Below, piece by piece: positions 42,660-50,898 of a DNA stretch of 64,000 bases (positions are counted from its first letter, which is position 1; each line of letters opens with the position of its first letter). The notes beneath the pieces are model-generated. The model searched no databases. It was not told the DNA's origin and saw only the letters and a list, made by a program, of their open reading frames with translations. A program made the translations under genes and the position numbers. This DNA is from Candidatus Hydrogenedentota bacterium (GTDB lineage Bacteria; Hydrogenedentota; Hydrogenedentia; Hydrogenedentales; Hydrogenedentaceae): the NCBI GenBank assembly GCA_026415215.1, contig JAOAHN010000037.1, positions 1-64,000 of the forward strand, in the 5' to 3' direction.

Positions 42660-43127
42660 ATGGTCCCAAAGGAAAGGGTAAAAAAATTGTGGACTATTTT
42701 AGAACCTTATGCAAACGAGCACGGGTTCGAAATCATAGAGTTAGAGTTTTCATCATACGGGAGAACTCCGGTACTTAGGGTTTATATAGACACATCGGAA
42801 GATGCTAATAGAAAGGTAAGTATAGATGATTGTGCATCTGTTTCTCAGGTTTTTAGTAATGTGTTAGATACGGTTTACATGGAAGAGGAGAGCTACATAC
42901 TTGAGGTATCGTCTCCAGGATTTGATAGACCTCTTAGAAGGGAGAAAGATTTTCTCCGATATAAAGGAGAAATGATAAAGGTGCAAACTGAAGTGCCCGT
43001 TGAGGGTAGAAAGGTTTACAAAGGTATATTGGAAGGAATAGAAGAAGGAATGGTAATACTCAATATCGATGGGAATTTGGTGAGAATACATTTGGAGAAT
43101 CTCAAGCGTGCAAATCTGATTAGGTAA
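42660..43127 (+). CDS. rimP: ribosome maturation factor RimP
   Basis: LRVYIDTSEDANRKVSIDDCASVSQVFSNVLD, YILEVSSPGFDRPLRREKDF; precedes nusA. Confidence 0.92.
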   Translation: MVPKERVKKLWTILEPYANEHGFEIIELEFSSYGRTPVLRVYIDTSEDANRKVSIDDCASVSQVFSNVLDTVYMEEESYILEVSSPGFDRPLRREKDFLRYKGEMIKVQTEVPVEGRKVYKGILEGIEEGMVILNIDGNLVRIHLENLKRANLIR

Positions 43128-44221
43128 TGAAAATAAGGAGACCTGGATTGAACGAAGACCTTAAAGTAATAATTGAACAGCTCGAGTTGGAAAAGAATAT
43201 AGACCGTTCGACTCTATTAGAGGCTGTTAGGAGTGCTTTAGAGGTTGCTGCTCGTAAGAGTATGAACCCTAAGACCAGTGTAACAGTCGAAATAGACCCC
43301 GAAACTTATGAGTTTAGGGTTTATGAGATTAGACAAGTAGTGGAGGATGTAACTGATCCTACTACTCAAATATCTCTTGAAGAAGCACTTCAATTAAATC
43401 CTGATGTGGTGGTCGGAAATAAACTAAAGGTTCTCACTGAACCAAAAGATTTTGGGAGAATTGCAGCACAAACAGCTCGGCAAGTCATAATCCAGAAGAT
43501 TAAGGAAGCCGAGAGGGAACAGGTTTATAACGAATTCAAACAAAGAGAGGGTGATTTAGTAACAGGCACAGTTAAAAAAGTTACAAGGGGTGAAATAATT
43601 GTTGCTTTAGGAAAAGCGGAGGCGATTTTACCTGCAAAGGAACAAACTCCAGGGGAGATTTATAGACCTAATGATAGAATAAAGGCTTATGTGCTAAAAG
43701 TTGACTTAAAAGATAAGTCTCAGAAAGGCTCTCCTCCTGTTATTCTTTTGTCACGGGCAACGCCATACCTTGTAAAGGCTTTGTTTGAAAATGAAGTTCC
43801 TGAAATATACGAGGGCGTAGTCGAAATAAAGGCAATTGCGAGGGATCCTGGGAAGAGGACAAAAGTAGCGGTGCTCTCCCATGACCCAAATGTAGATGCG
43901 ATAGGTGCTTGTGTAGGGTTAAAAGGTGCAAGAGTAAGGGCGGTGGTGGAGGAGTTAGGAGGAGAGAAAATTGATATAATCCAATGGAGTGATGACCCGG
44001 CAGAGTTATGTGTGCGAGCTTTGAGTCCGGCAGATATACTCGAAGTGACTATCGATGAGGAGAATAGATGTATCCATGTGGTAGTTCCTCAAGACCAGCT
44101 ATCTCTTGCTATTGGGAAGCACGGTCAAAATGCGAGATTAGCATCTAAGATTGTGGGATGGAATATAGATATTAAACCTGAGAAGGTTACTGAACAAGGA
44201 AACATTTTGGAAACGGAGTAG
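43127..44221 (+). CDS. nusA: transcription termination/antitermination factor NusA
   Basis: GKRTKVAVLSHDPNVDAIGACVGLKGARVRAVVEELGGEKIDIIQW; KH domains; AIGKHGQNARLASKIVGW. Confidence 0.96.
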   Translation: MKIRRPGLNEDLKVIIEQLELEKNIDRSTLLEAVRSALEVAARKSMNPKTSVTVEIDPETYEFRVYEIRQVVEDVTDPTTQISLEEALQLNPDVVVGNKLKVLTEPKDFGRIAAQTARQVIIQKIKEAEREQVYNEFKQREGDLVTGTVKKVTRGEIIVALGKAEAILPAKEQTPGEIYRPNDRIKAYVLKVDLKDKSQKGSPPVILLSRATPYLVKALFENEVPEIYEGVVEIKAIARDPGKRTKVAVLSHDPNVDAIGACVGLKGARVRAVVEELGGEKIDIIQWSDDPAELCVRALSPADILEVTIDEENRCIHVVVPQDQLSLAIGKHGQNARLASKIVGWNIDIKPEKVTEQGNILETE

Positions 44222-44259: not shown

Positions 44260-47200
44260 ATGGCAAAGACAATTTCTGAATTCATAAACTCAAGATGTAA
44301 AAATTTGCTTGAGGCAGTAGGGCATAGTGAGGAGAAGTTAAAAGAAATTGTGAGAGATCTGACGGGGGAGGAGAATCTTGAAATACCTATTGGAGAGTAC
44401 CAAGATCTGTTTCTTGATTTGAATGAAAAATTGGAGGGAGCAAAAGATGAGGATCAGGAATCTGTTATTCGAAGTTATATAGAAGAGAATAAGGTAGTTA
44501 AGGGGAAAGGAAAGGGGAAATCACAAAAAACTAAAATAACTGTAAAAGAAAAAGAAGAGAAAGGGGCTGAGGAAGAGAAAAAGCCAAAATCGAGAAAAAA
44601 AACTAAAAAAGAAACAGCTCCGCCGGAGATTGGTGCAGAAGAAAAGCCCCCAGCTAAAGAAATTAAAGTTAAGAGGGAGAAAAAGAAAAAGGAAGAGAAG
44701 CCGGAAGAAGTTCCGTCCACCGAGAAGGAAGAGATTCTAACCACTGGAAAAGTGGGTAGAGCCCGTAAAAAAGTTCTTGATTCTGGAGAGAAACAATCTA
44801 AACCGCCTGAACTTCAGTTGTTATCTGAGGAGAAGGTAAAGACAGATACGATAGCTGGGGCTTCACCGCACTTAGTCCAGGAGAAGAAAACCGAAGTAAA
44901 ATCGGAACAGAAAGTATCCCGTGTAGCAGAGATAATTAGGGAGGAAACTTCTGAAACACTTACTCAACAACTATCTCCAACTCCTTTTGAAAAGAGTCCG
45001 GTAACCAAAGATGAGTCTAAACAGAGTACCCTCGGAATAGGAATTGGAACCGCTGCAGAGCAAGAGGAGCCCGAAGCAGTGGTTATTCTCCAAGATGGGA
45101 CGAGAGCAAGGGTAGGGGATGCTGATTTTGATGAGAAGATTAGAAAAGCCCAGTTTGGTGTTGAAGATGAAATGACAGAAAGTGTGGATAAGTATAGTGG
45201 ATATAAGGAGGTAGAAGATAGAGAACAAAAGAGGTTTTCAAAACATACTATACTCCCTGACCCAGAAGTTGTTGAAAGAGTTAGGAGAGAATCTGAAGAA
45301 AGGCTAAAGAAGAAAAAGGAAAAGAAAAAACTTAAAGGTAAAGTAAAACCTAAAGGCAGTGGTAGTGTAGTGGAAAGGATTGATAAAGAGAAACTTTTTC
45401 AAGGTAGAGGGGAATTTTCTAAGGTTAAGTGGGAGAAGAAGGAAAAGAAAAGACATAAATTTGAAAAATATGATTATTATGAGGAAGATGACTTACAAAG
45501 GGAGGCTGAGGAGGCTGTAAGAGCCTTTGAAGCGTTAGGCCCTGGTATTCATGCAAGACGGAAAAAGAAGAAGAGAGAGAGAGGAAGTGTTGAGGAAGTC
45601 ACGGAAAAGGTTGAGGCTCCTGTGATCGAGGTAACAGGTGCTATGACGATAGAAAGTCTTGCACAAATTATGGATGTTCCCTCAGCTGACCTCATCGTAG
45701 ACTTGATGGATCTTAACATAATGGCTACTAAAAATCAGGTTGTAGACATTGATGCAATAAAGTTTTTGGCACAAAAGCATGGTTATGAGGTGAGATTGGT
45801 TATTCCGGAGGAGGAAGATATTCTCAAAGAAGAACCGGACAACCCTGAAGATTTAATTCCTCGTCCTCCTGTTGTAACAGTGATGGGGCATGTGGATCAT
45901 GGGAAAACTTCCTTACTGGACAAAGTAAGGTCTACTAATGTTGCCGCTTCAGAAGCGGGTGGTATAACTCAGCACATAGCAGCTTACGAAGTGAACACTC
46001 CGAGTGGGAAAGTAGTTTTCTTGGATACTCCAGGTCATGAGGCATTTACTCAAATGAGGGCGAGAGGAGCAAAAGTAACTGACATAGTTGTGTTAGTAGT
46101 TGCAGCAGATGATGGGGTTCAGCCCCAAACTATAGAAGCAATAGATCATGCTCGCTCTGCAGAGGTGCCCATAATAGTCGCGATTAATAAGTGTGACAAG
46201 CCCGATGCCCAGCCCGATAAAGTGAGACAACAACTTGCTGCTTATGGTCTTATTGACGAAGCATGGGGTGGGAAAACAATTATGAAAAATATTTCTGCTC
46301 GCACAGGCGAAGGAGTTAATGAGTTGCTCGAACTAATAGTTCTTCAATCTCAAATGATGGATTTGAAAGCCAATCCAAATAGAAAAGCCCGTGGGACTGT
46401 GATAGAAGCAGAGATTAGTAGATATTTAGGTCCTGTAGCATGGGTGCTGGTTCAGAATGGAACCTTAAGAGTAGGTGATGTAGTTTTAGTGGGTGATACC
46501 TGGGGTAAAGTCAGAGCAATGTACAATTCTAATGGTGAATCTATAAAAGATGCATTGCCATCTATCCCTGTACTTATTACCGGTTTAGAAAATTTACCTG
46601 AAGCAGGTGATAAGTTAATAGCCCTCGATGATGAACGAAAAGCCAAAGTCATTTCTGAAAAGAGAAAAGAGCTGAAGAGATTCCAATCTAAAGAGTCGTT
46701 AAAACCCCTTACACTTGAAGATTTGCAGAATTTGATTTCTGCAGGTGAGGTTAAGAAGCTCCCAATAATAATAAAGGCCGATGTGCAAGGTTCTGCGGAT
46801 GTTTTGAAAACTAGCCTGGGGGCAGTAGGAAATGAAGAAGTTACGGTAGATATTATAAGAGCAGGGGTAGGTGAGGTTAGCGAGTCCGATGTTCTACTTG
46901 CTCAAGTTACAAAAGCAATCATTATAAGTTTTAATGTCGAAGTACATCCAAGAGCTCAGAAATTGGCTGAGGAGAAAGGCGTAGAGGTTAGAAAATATTG
47001 TGTTATATATGATGTGCTTGAAGATATACGCAAAGCTCTATCAGGGTTATTGAAGCCTGTGACACAAGAAATAGTTCTCGGGCGAGCTGAGATTAGAAAA
47101 GTCTTTAGGTCTTCATCAATTGGAAATATTGCAGGGTGCTTTCAGTTAGATGGATTGACAGTCAGAGGAGCTCATGCGAGAGTAATCCGTAATGGAGTAG

Positions 47201-47367
47201 TAGTGGCTGAAGATAGAATAATCTCTTTGAAGCGTCTTAAAGATGATGTAAAGGAGGTCTCAGCAGGATACGAGTGTGGTATAAAATTAGAGAAATTTGA
47301 GGATATAGAAGAAGGTGATATTATTGAAACATATAAGTTGGAAGAAGTAAAGCCTTCGCTAAACTAA
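44260..47367 (+). CDS. infB: translation initiation factor IF-2
   Basis: PPVVTVMGHVDHGKTSLLDKVR, DTPGHEAFTQMRARGAKVTDIVVLVVAADDG; Lys/Glu-rich N-terminal half. Confidence 0.97.
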   Translation: MAKTISEFINSRCKNLLEAVGHSEEKLKEIVRDLTGEENLEIPIGEYQDLFLDLNEKLEGAKDEDQESVIRSYIEENKVVKGKGKGKSQKTKITVKEKEEKGAEEEKKPKSRKKTKKETAPPEIGAEEKPPAKEIKVKREKKKKEEKPEEVPSTEKEEILTTGKVGRARKKVLDSGEKQSKPPELQLLSEEKVKTDTIAGASPHLVQEKKTEVKSEQKVSRVAEIIREETSETLTQQLSPTPFEKSPVTKDESKQSTLGIGIGTAAEQEEPEAVVILQDGTRARVGDADFDEKIRKAQFGVEDEMTESVDKYSGYKEVEDREQKRFSKHTILPDPEVVERVRRESEERLKKKKEKKKLKGKVKPKGSGSVVERIDKEKLFQGRGEFSKVKWEKKEKKRHKFEKYDYYEEDDLQREAEEAVRAFEALGPGIHARRKKKKRERGSVEEVTEKVEAPVIEVTGAMTIESLAQIMDVPSADLIVDLMDLNIMATKNQVVDIDAIKFLAQKHGYEVRLVIPEEEDILKEEPDNPEDLIPRPPVVTVMGHVDHGKTSLLDKVRSTNVAASEAGGITQHIAAYEVNTPSGKVVFLDTPGHEAFTQMRARGAKVTDIVVLVVAADDGVQPQTIEAIDHARSAEVPIIVAINKCDKPDAQPDKVRQQLAAYGLIDEAWGGKTIMKNISARTGEGVNELLELIVLQSQMMDLKANPNRKARGTVIEAEISRYLGPVAWVLVQNGTLRVGDVVLVGDTWGKVRAMYNSNGESIKDALPSIPVLITGLENLPEAGDKLIALDDERKAKVISEKRKELKRFQSKESLKPLTLEDLQNLISAGEVKKLPIIIKADVQGSADVLKTSLGAVGNEEVTVDIIRAGVGEVSESDVLLAQVTKAIIISFNVEVHPRAQKLAEEKGVEVRKYCVIYDVLEDIRKALSGLLKPVTQEIVLGRAEIRKVFRSSSIGNIAGCFQLDGLTVRGAHARVIRNGVVVAEDRIISLKRLKDDVKEVSAGYECGIKLEKFEDIEEGDIIETYKLEEVKPSLN

Positions 47368-47389
47368 GGGTGTAGAAAGGAAGTCTCGT

Positions 47390-47674
47390 GGGGTAGCTAT
47401 TGGACTTCTTCATCTGGATTTCTCTATTTACGGAGTTCATTCATTAAAGGAAAAAAGACGGATTGTGAAAAGTATTGTAGCTCAGATAAGAAGTAAATTT
47501 AATTGCTCCGTGGCAGAAACTGATTTTCACGATTTGTGGCAAAGAGCAAGGATTACAATTTGCGTTGTGGCTAATGAACACCGATTTGCAAATACCCAAT
47601 TAAATGAAATAGCAAAATTTGCGTTCACCCATGCAGACGCTGAAATATTAGACTATAGGATTGAGATGTTATGA
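47390..47674 (+). CDS. DUF503 family protein (start codon uncertain; the ORF track start at 47465 is too short)
   Basis: In-frame text upstream of 47465: GVAIGLLHLDFSIYGVHSLKEKRRIVKSIVAQIRSKFNCSVAETDFHDLWQRARITICVVANEHR...DAEILDYRIEML matches the DUF503 pattern (SLKEKR...FNVSVAE...DLWQRA). Confidence 0.8.
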   Translation, partial: GVAIGLLHLDFSIYGVHSLKEKRRIVKSIVAQIRSKFNCSVAETDFHDLWQRARITICVVANEHRFANTQLNEIAKFAFTHADAEILDYRIEML

Positions 47675-49014
47675 CAAAAAAGGTGAGGATAGAAAGAGTA
47701 GCTGAATTCATTAGAGAAGAAATAGCGAAGCTTTTAATAGACGGAATAAAAGATCCTCGATTAGGTTTTGTTTCTGTAATGAAAGTTAGAATGTCCAACG
47801 ATTTGAGATATGCAGATGTTTATGTAAGTTTGTATGGCGATGAGAAACAAAGAAAAAGCTCCTTAATTGCCCTACAAAATTCCGCAGGCTGGGTTAAGTC
47901 TATGATTGCCCAAAACCTCCATATGAGGTATATACCTGATATTCGGTTTCTACCAGACGATAGTTTAGAACGTGCTTATGCTATGGAAGAAGTTTTTAAT
48001 AAGATCCATCAAGAGCGTTCAACATTACCCTTTTTAAGATTAGAGTTATCTGAATTGATTGAAGAAATTTTAAGCTCAAATAAGATAATGATAACTACTC
48101 ATGAAAGACCTGATGGGGATGCTCTTGGTAGTTTGATAGGCTTATGGATCTGGTTAGAACAAAAGGGAAAAGAGGTAATCCCTTTGATTTCAGCACCAGT
48201 TCCGAAGATGTATAGTTTTTTACCTCGATCTTCTCAAATCCGTCATCTTGAAGAAGATAAACTGCCTCGTTGGGACTTTGATACAGTTATAATAGTAGAT
48301 GTTGCTTCTACTTCGAGAATTGGGGAGGTTAACAAATACGTTAAACCGACTCATAAAGTGATTGTAATAGACCACCACGAGACACTTGATGCAAATGGCT
48401 TGATGGGTTATGCAAACTCATCATATTCTGCTTGTGGAGAAATAATTTCGGAGATTTATATCAATACAGATGTACCATTTTCCAAGGAAAGTGCTATTGC
48501 TCTTTATGTAGCAATTGCCACTGATACAGGTGGGTTTAGATTTTCCAACACTACATCGTTAACACACCAGATTACATCCACTTTGTTAAAAACAGGGCTT
48601 GACTTAGAAGAGATTAATACTCGAATTTTCGAGTCGTTTACTAAAGAACAGTTTGAACTGTTAAGGCGGATCTTGAGTAGGACAGAATTTACTGCGGAGG
48701 GAAAAGTGTCTTATTCATCCTTATTCCTTAAAGATTTTCAAGAAACAGGGGCGACTCTTGAAGACTGTCATAACTTAACGAATTTCTTACGAGATATAGA
48801 GAATGTTGTAGTAGGAGTATTATTTGTAGAATTAGAAAGAAAAAAGACGAAAGTAAGTCTACGCTCCAGGAAAGTGTTTAATTCTGGCGAGTTTATGATG
48901 CGGTTAGGTGGGGGAGGACATAGATGTGCAGCGGGCGGTACTTTAGACATGCCTATCGATCTTGCTAAGAAAAGTATCTTAGCTGAATTAGAAAGTAGTT
49001 TGAAGACTATATGA
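47671..49014 (+). CDS. fusion protein: ribosome-binding factor A (N-term) + DHH/DHHA1 phosphoesterase NrnA-like (C-term)
   Basis: MTKKVRIERVAEFIREEIAKLLIDGIKDPRLGFVSVMKVRMSNDLRYADVYVSL (RbfA) then IMITTHERPDGDALGSLIGL, DHHETLD, RLGGGGHRCAAGGTL (NrnA) in one ORF. Confidence 0.92.
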   Translation: MTKKVRIERVAEFIREEIAKLLIDGIKDPRLGFVSVMKVRMSNDLRYADVYVSLYGDEKQRKSSLIALQNSAGWVKSMIAQNLHMRYIPDIRFLPDDSLERAYAMEEVFNKIHQERSTLPFLRLELSELIEEILSSNKIMITTHERPDGDALGSLIGLWIWLEQKGKEVIPLISAPVPKMYSFLPRSSQIRHLEEDKLPRWDFDTVIIVDVASTSRIGEVNKYVKPTHKVIVIDHHETLDANGLMGYANSSYSACGEIISEIYINTDVPFSKESAIALYVAIATDTGGFRFSNTTSLTHQITSTLLKTGLDLEEINTRIFESFTKEQFELLRRILSRTEFTAEGKVSYSSLFLKDFQETGATLEDCHNLTNFLRDIENVVVGVLFVELERKKTKVSLRSRKVFNSGEFMMRLGGGGHRCAAGGTLDMPIDLAKKSILAELESSLKTI

Positions 49015-49051: not shown

Positions 49052-49966
49052 ATGGAACATGGTTTGCAAAGCGGTATTCTGCTTGTAGATAAACCTACTG
49101 ATTGGACTTCACACGATGTTGTTCAATATGTGAGAAAAAAAACCGGAATTGCCAAGGTAGGACACACCGGAACATTAGACCCTATTGCTACTGGTTTGCT
49201 AATTTTGTGTATCGGCAAGGCTACTCGGTTATCTGAGTTTTTTATGTCTATGGACAAGACTTACGAAGGTAGGATGCGCTTAGGCTTAATAACCGATACC
49301 CACGATATTTTAGGAAAGGTTTTAGAGGAAAGGCAGGTTGTTGATGTAAATAAGTCTACCTTGTATCAACTCACGAATCAGTTCATAGGTGAAATAGAAC
49401 AAGTACCTCCTATGGTTAGTGCCCTGAAGGTAGGGGGACAAAGATTATATGAACTTGCACGGAAGGGTATTAGTGTGGATAGAAGGCCTAGAAAGGTGCG
49501 TGTCTACGAGTTCTCTATACTTGGACTTGAACTTCCATATATTAAAGTTAGGATATCATGTGGAAAAGGAACTTATGTGCGAACTCTAATTCATGATTTT
49601 GGATTAAAACTTGGATGTGGAGCAGTAATGGCTGAATTGCGAAGAATTAAATTGGGAAAATTCTCCGTTGAGGATGCTATCCCTGTCAAAGAAATTACAG
49701 ACTTCGATTCAGTTTCAGAGAGGATAATTCCTATAGACTCCGCTCTCTCTATGCCTAAGGTCTCAGTATATCCAAAGGGAGAGGAGCAATTTAACCAAGG
49801 GCGGAAAGTATTTCCGAAGGATATTAAAGAGTTTGAAGGGGGAACAGCTGAGTATGTTCAAGTGTTAAATGAGATGGGTAAGTTTCTTGGCATAGGTACA
49901 ATAAAATTTACTGCAATAGGTCCTTTTGTGACCCCCAAAAAGGTACTTGCGGACACAGGTCTATGA
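49052..49966 (+). CDS. truB: tRNA pseudouridine(55) synthase TruB
   Basis: GILLVDKPTDWTSHDVV, GHTGTLDPIATGLL, YLR-type C-terminal domain. Confidence 0.96.
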   Translation: MEHGLQSGILLVDKPTDWTSHDVVQYVRKKTGIAKVGHTGTLDPIATGLLILCIGKATRLSEFFMSMDKTYEGRMRLGLITDTHDILGKVLEERQVVDVNKSTLYQLTNQFIGEIEQVPPMVSALKVGGQRLYELARKGISVDRRPRKVRVYEFSILGLELPYIKVRISCGKGTYVRTLIHDFGLKLGCGAVMAELRRIKLGKFSVEDAIPVKEITDFDSVSERIIPIDSALSMPKVSVYPKGEEQFNQGRKVFPKDIKEFEGGTAEYVQVLNEMGKFLGIGTIKFTAIGPFVTPKKVLADTGL

Positions 49967-50898
49967 TTTTTATAGAAAATGTTCTCGGACTTTCATATAA
50001 AGATTCCAGGGTAGTTTTGACTATAGGCAGTTTCGACGGCGTTCATTTAGGACATCAGGAGATAATTAGAACCGTAGTAGAGTTGGCAAAGCAAAAAAAT
50101 TGTAAATCTTGCGTGATAATTTTGAGACCTCATCCAAGGCAATACTTCTTCCCAGGTATTCCTCTAAATACACTTACTTCAGAAAAAGCTCAGATAAATT
50201 TAATGACTTCTCTCGGAGTAGAAATCGTAGGTATTTTACCATTTGATGGAAATGTTGCTTCCATTGAGCCAGAGAACTTTGTATTACATGTTCTTATGAG
50301 ATTCGCGGAGATCGATACAATAGTAGTGGGACATGATTTCAGATTTGGCAAAGGAGCAAAGGGGGACTTTAAGTTACTTTCTAAACTCGCTGAAAAATGT
50401 TCTTTTGATGTGGTTCAGGTTCCCCCTTTAGTAATCCAAGGTGAAAGGGTAAGCAGTTCATTAATTAGAGAATTAGTATTAGAGGGGGAAATGGAGGAAA
50501 TACCTATTTTTTTAGGGAGGGAATATTCTATTATAGGTAAAGTTGTGAAGGGTAAAGGTATAGGTAAAGTGTTAGGCTTTCCTACTGCTAACATTATCCC
50601 GTTAAATACCGCAATTCCTCCTCATGGAGTTTATGTAGCTAAAAGTATCCTCGAGGATGGCTCTAAATATCCATCTGCGGTAAACATAGGCATTGCTCCC
50701 ACCATTAGGAAAAGTGATTTCGCCATAGAGAGCCATCTTATAAATTTTGAGGGGGACCTTTTAAACAAAGAAGTAGAAGTTATTTTTTACAAGCGAATAA
50801 GGCCAGAAAAGAAGTTTTCCAATAAAGATGAGCTCATCAAAGCAATTGAACAGGATGTGGAAATAGTTAAGTCTTATTTTCCTAATGATTTTTTCTAA
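49963..50898 (+). CDS. ribF: bifunctional riboflavin kinase/FAD synthetase
   Basis: TIGSFDGVHLGHQEIIR, VVGHDFRFGKGAKGD, VSSSLIRELV, GKVLGFPTANI. Confidence 0.95.
   Translation: MIFIENVLGLSYKDSRVVLTIGSFDGVHLGHQEIIRTVVELAKQKNCKSCVIILRPHPRQYFFPGIPLNTLTSEKAQINLMTSLGVEIVGILPFDGNVASIEPENFVLHVLMRFAEIDTIVVGHDFRFGKGAKGDFKLLSKLAEKCSFDVVQVPPLVIQGERVSSSLIRELVLEGEMEEIPIFLGREYSIIGKVVKGKGIGKVLGFPTANIIPLNTAIPPHGVYVAKSILEDGSKYPSAVNIGIAPTIRKSDFAIESHLINFEGDLLNKEVEVIFYKRIRPEKKFSNKDELIKAIEQDVEIVKSYFPNDFF

Follow-up and report, generated by a model that had tools for sequence, protein, structure and literature searches.

A fused RbfA and NrnA-type phosphoesterase in Hydrogenedentota

Does the frame that follows DUF503 and precedes truB in this bacterium encode a ribosome assembly factor and a phosphoesterase as one protein, and what would be gained by joining them? 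The question is raised by a locus in a 64,000-nucleotide stretch of Candidatus Hydrogenedentota DNA (hereafter the window), in which an rbfA-like sequence runs into a DHH/DHHA1 phosphoesterase sequence.

One frame holding two complete domains

In the window, positions 47671–49014 of the forward strand form a single open reading frame (ORF), from an ATG at 47671 to a TGA at 49014, that encodes 447 amino acids and has no stop at the junction (Table 1). Pfam assigned RBFA to aa 6–108 (1.3e-30), DHH to aa 138–282 (1e-17) and DHHA1 to aa 351–443 (3.5e-12), all three over the curated cut-offs. An earlier sequence-only reading, which had described RbfA and an NrnA-type DHH phosphoesterase in one 447-aa ORF, is borne out, and the same frame is found in relatives. 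The RbfA domain that it described is present, with a length of 116 aa in place of about 117, and the DHH/DHHA1 motifs that it quoted were found as DGDALGS, DHHE and GGGGHRCAAGG.

The RbfA module scored 106 bits against PF02033 (cut-off 34.7; model positions 1–104 of 105) and 111.9 bits against TIGR00082 (cut-off 51.15), and phmmer matched it to the S. aureus and E. coli RbfA structures at 4e-18 and 1.3e-17, respectively. As in the RbfA of these two species (PF02033/TIGR00082), the domain is complete including its C-terminal helix, and it lies in a nusA–infB–rbfA–truB operon neighbourhood. Unlike them, the fusion has no free C-terminus, the helix continuing into the phosphoesterase, and the position aligned with the AxG of the helix-kink-helix in the type II KH fold reads SAG (aa 71–73), compared with ASG in E. 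coli and AKG in S. aureus. SAG is common to most of the phylum; AAG occupies this position in G101, a genome outside it. The fusion is the sole RbfA of the window genome.

AlphaFold2, run on 28 fused sequences, returned two well-formed modules joined by a short linker (mean pLDDT 92, pTM 0.73): an RbfA module with pLDDT mostly above 90, a helix at aa 98–116, the linker at aa 117–125 and then the DHH/DHHA1 fold. With a pTM of just 0.73, the relative placement of the modules is not fixed by this model. Alignment and the junction table show that linker length is constant within the main fused clade; linker sequence is poorly conserved.

Table 1 Features of the fusion gene and its operon in the window
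Feature	Coordinates	Strand	Evidence
nusA, operon member	43127..44221	+	Order conserved in phylum loci
infB, operon member	44260..47367	+	Order conserved in phylum loci
DUF503 frame, upstream	47363..47674	+	Pfam DUF503 1.1e-18
RbfA module, aa 1–116 (KH-like domain and C-terminal helix)	47671..48018	+	Pfam, phmmer, AlphaFold2
RbfA C-terminal helix, aa 98–116, second enzyme joined at its end	47962..48018	+	DSSP on AlphaFold2 model
Linker, aa 117–125, STLPFLRLE	48019..48045	+	Alignment, junction table, AlphaFold2 model
Relic of former nrnA start codon, aa 121 (F121, TTT)	48031..48033	+	Junction table
NrnA-type DHH/DHHA1 phosphoesterase module, aa 126–447	48046..49011	+	Pfam, Foldseek
DHH domain	48082..48516	+	Pfam, alignment
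DHHA1 domain with R398 and GGGGH(413–417)xxAAG	48721..48999	+	Pfam, alignment
truB, downstream	49052..49966	+	Pfam TruB_N 1.6e-55
ribF, downstream	49963..50898	+	Named from sequence

The gene order around the fusion is nusA–infB–DUF503–rbfA::nrnA–truB–ribF, and the order from nusA to ribF is kept in the phylum loci examined wherever contigs are long enough. The DUF503 stop overlaps the rbfA start in an ATGA at 47671–47674. At its other end, the DUF503 frame has a conserved N-terminus without ATG, GTG or TTG in the window genome and both congeners (47388–47396 in the window; L049 and L050). The codon at that position is ATG or GTG in relatives and GTA in these three, in each of which it forms part of xTG-GGG-TAG, a start-Gly-stop in the −1 frame; the gene may involve a non-AUG start, a frameshift or a mini-ORF. 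A separate observation concerns 16S rRNA, of which only two partial pieces were recovered, about 20 bases apart near a contig end (G000:C19:20358-21117; L032, L033).

Distribution and repeated origin

The same fusion, for which the earlier reading had suggested looking in relatives, is present in 33 of 68 sampled phylum genomes (one order, 11 families); 27 encode two separate genes, and 8 are incomplete or gave no match. Nine families (f1–f3 and f6–f11) are fused wherever a full-length gene is present; f5 contains split genomes only, as does f4 apart from G019 (L047). The latter carries a second, apparently independent fusion in an otherwise split family, and its junction lacks the proline of the main clade.

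Where the genes are split, nrnA is read in the +1 frame with respect to rbfA. Its probable start in most cases overlaps the end of rbfA, which carries a short, often acidic tail. The fusion lacks this RbfA tail of its split relatives: throughout the main fused clade it is missing, and the terminal helix passes into a proline and then, in most genomes, into a methionine, the old nrnA start. The overlapping rbfA and nrnA of an ancestor would have entered one frame, with loss of the RbfA tail.

A tree was built from the flanking-gene products NusA, InfB, TruB and RibF, rooted with three outside genomes (quick search, SH-aLRT support). On it the split state is ancestral and there were two gains, both forced by starred branches; the main gain lies at the base of the nine-family clade and was retained in all 23 sampled genomes, never reversed, and the other lies in G019. 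A careful tree of the DHH domain that includes outside lineages requires five changes, of which starred branches force four or more. Outside the phylum, a survey of about 320 genomes recovered true single-frame fusions, among the best matches, in three lineages: G200 and G337 (both sampled genomes of their phylum), G101 (one of the four sampled from its phylum) and G098 (the only one sampled from its phylum, with the stop inside its match being the terminal one) (L074, L075, L076, L079). By alignment, their linkers are unlike that of the window. The survey gives best matches only, so further fusions outside the phylum may exist. The RbfA–NrnA fusion is old and arose several times, with about five separate origins.

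Other candidates (G383, G187, G373, G235, G367, G362 and others) were rejected as split neighbours, the match having run through one stop. That rbfA and nrnA are commonly separate neighbours, as the earlier reading had it, is true of many sampled bacteria. In L082 (G142), L099 (G081) and others, the neighbouring frames overlap or abut, so that many lineages are a small step from fusion.

Comparison of close relatives gave dN values of 0.04–0.08 for the RbfA part and 0.12–0.24 for the DHH part, with dS of about 0.7–3; both modules are under purifying selection. Such selection reveals constraint on each part, but a benefit of the link does not follow from it alone, and overlapping neighbour genes can fuse by accident, without functional meaning. 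The join might then be neutral or matter for expression only, the two domains working independently at a fixed 1:1 ratio and the tether having no role. One frameshift and the loss of the RbfA tail would be enough for this, because the genes of split relatives overlap in the same order, and the poor conservation of the linker sequence also speaks for it. It accounts less well for about five separate origins, for the absence of any fission in 23 sampled descendants and for the behaviour of the other adjacent operon pairs, which serve as an internal control for chance fusion: nusA/infB, infB/DUF503, DUF503/rbfA, nrnA/truB and truB/ribF are never fused in the phylum loci examined. All three observations are nevertheless compatible with neutrality, and we consider a neutral join possible but rather unlikely.

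The phosphoesterase and its proposed place on the 30S subunit

Scores of 65 bits for DHH (cut-off 28.1) and 47.1 bits for DHHA1 (cut-off 25.9) place the second module in the DHH/DHHA1 phosphoesterases, whose metal-binding Asp/His and GGGHxxA[A/S]G motifs are intact; H144, D148, D150, D210, D234-H235-H236, D285 and GGGGH are invariant in 28/28 aligned fused proteins. The top Foldseek match for the AlphaFold2 model was TM1595 of Thermotoga maritima (5o1u, 5o4z; TM-score 0.94 by target, E 8e-33), to which the module is 30–31% identical; other NrnA-like enzymes also align. The fusion shares its fold and catalytic motifs with stand-alone NrnA/DHH-DHHA1 phosphodiesterases such as TM1595, and differs from them in bearing RbfA on its N-terminus. 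A hydrolase with an N-terminal partner domain is also found in GdpP and other multi-domain DHH-DHHA1 proteins, but the GdpP partners are membrane, PAS and GGDEF domains (PMC9757072), whereas the partner here is a ribosome assembly factor. Against the NCBIfam NrnA equivalog NF053633 the module scored 131 bits, far under the 350-bit cut-off. It is NrnA-type by homology and fold and stands outside that narrow equivalog. Of the R-x-R-x-R substrate motif of NrnA (R262/264/266 in B. subtilis), the fusion would retain two of three arginines if S-L-R-S-R (aa 396–400) is so aligned; the first is also missing in TM1595 (VSMRSK).

The window genome encodes two DHH proteins, the fusion and a 564-aa protein read as RecJ from its sequence, and has no GdpP-type DHH protein. 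An Orn model gave no match in this genome or in 20 others (21/21 without Orn). For the fusion, a viral structure library returned only distant DHH matches, and a single-protein search of genome contigs gave a DHH relative in Polycladospora as its sole match.

B. subtilis NrnA is a 5′–3′ exonuclease on RNA of 2–4 nt with little activity on pAp, and NrnA proteins in published assays show little pAp phosphatase activity (PMC9757072). TM1595, the closest solved structure, was determined with pApA, AMP and GMP. Because of these assays and ligands, pAp, proposed as a substrate by the earlier reading, is a weak candidate, and 2–4-nt RNA or pApA would be the likelier substrate. NrnA proteins characterised to date are dimers (PMC11229311).

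As for where such an enzyme would be held, aa 98–116 of the fusion match the region that forms the uS7-contacting C-terminal helix of S. aureus RbfA on the 30S subunit (PMC9917171). In one E. coli structure, the RbfA C-terminus points toward the 16S 5′ end, and RbfA helps the 5′ leader to refold against helix 1; in another structure RbfA lies elsewhere, at the mRNA exit (PMC9032327, PMC8201178); RbfA placement differs between published RbfA–30S structures (PMC9032327). From the position of this helix and the activity of B. subtilis NrnA we infer that the hydrolase would be delivered to the neck region of the pre-30S particle. The RbfA part would most likely dock in the pre-30S neck cleft, like RbfA in other bacteria, with the phosphoesterase hanging by its short linker from the end of the C-terminal helix and carried near uS7, the mRNA exit and the 16S 5′ end. 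So tethered, the hydrolase could cleave very short RNAs or pApA. We therefore favour, as the probable reading, one bifunctional protein that serves as the sole RbfA and as an NrnA-type hydrolase, likely docked on pre-30S and hydrolysing very short RNAs or pApA. The likeliest consequence of the fusion would be to bring a nanoRNase to the pre-30S particle.

A more specific role is conceivable but improbable: the hydrolase, tethered beside the mRNA exit and the 16S 5′ end, might trim or clear the last short RNA pieces from precursor rRNA, or might couple pApA hydrolysis, and with it c-di-AMP breakdown, to RbfA occupancy and so gate 30S maturation. A part for c-di-AMP is possible because each of the 21 genomes tested, whether fused or split, encodes a diadenylate cyclase (DAC) domain. 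As the feature that separates fused from split genomes, c-di-AMP was rejected, the cyclase being present in 21/21.

Alternatively, the phosphoesterase could act mainly as a bulky cap that obstructs the path of the mRNA on immature 30S, its catalysis being incidental. Mitochondrial RBFA offers a precedent, as its C-terminal extension follows the equivalent helix into the mRNA path (PMC9917171). The fusion resembles it in carrying an extension after the terminal helix, but this extension is a phosphoesterase, whereas no enzyme domain is described in the mitochondrial one (PMC9917171). A pure cap would not need the catalytic residues that all 28 aligned fused proteins retain, which makes this role very unlikely.

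One product, and what the fusion may mean

Could the gene yield the full-length fusion and also a free NrnA, started internally at the old nrnA position? An ATG is kept there in most other fused genomes, and in G013 the sequence upstream of it resembles a ribosome-binding site. However, the codon was lost in f1, G008 and G035: TTT stands in its place in both congeners as well as in the window genome, with CTA in G008 and CTG in G035. These Phe and Leu replacements keep a hydrophobic residue, which would fit packing better than initiation. Across aa 96–146, G008 lacks any ATG, GTG or TTG in frame, and inspection by eye found a clear ribosome-binding site missing in most ATG-bearing fused genomes. 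In the window gene, the closest alternative start codons in frame are a TTG at aa 129 and an ATG at aa 140; both lie inside the phosphoesterase domain and would truncate it. Internal initiation had been named by the sequence-only reading as an outcome that would refute it; because the old start codon is TTT, two proteins are unlikely in the window genome, and we regard this scheme as highly improbable. A sequencing or assembly artefact joining two genes, for which nothing speaks beyond the draft status of the genome (146 contigs), can practically be dismissed, since the frame is open in all 33 genomes and their linkers match in length, and a missed stop at the junction is excluded because two congeners (67–68% identity) and 30 further phylum genomes carry the frame uninterrupted.

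The window gene is therefore confirmed as a genuine RbfA–NrnA fusion, and the physical link proposed from the sequence holds, with no junction stop in 33 genomes, purifying selection on both domains and TTT at the old start. In the open-access literature we found no published description of an RbfA–NrnA fusion. It is a new composite of known parts, both families being known and the gene neighbourhood widespread, and the architecture may well be listed already in automatic domain databases.

That 30S maturation and nanoRNA turnover are also linked functionally is plausible, given that the fusion has arisen repeatedly and that the C-terminus of RbfA is directed at uS7 and the 16S 5′ end. Genes that fuse repeatedly and do not separate again are a classic hint that their products work together, and in this case the hint leads from a 30S assembly factor to the remover of the last RNA fragments, a link absent from the literature searched. 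For ordinary laboratory bacteria, in which rbfA and nrnA are separate, this opens the question of whether the two proteins act in the same place, and the fusion would provide a naturally ribosome-targeted nanoRNase for study.
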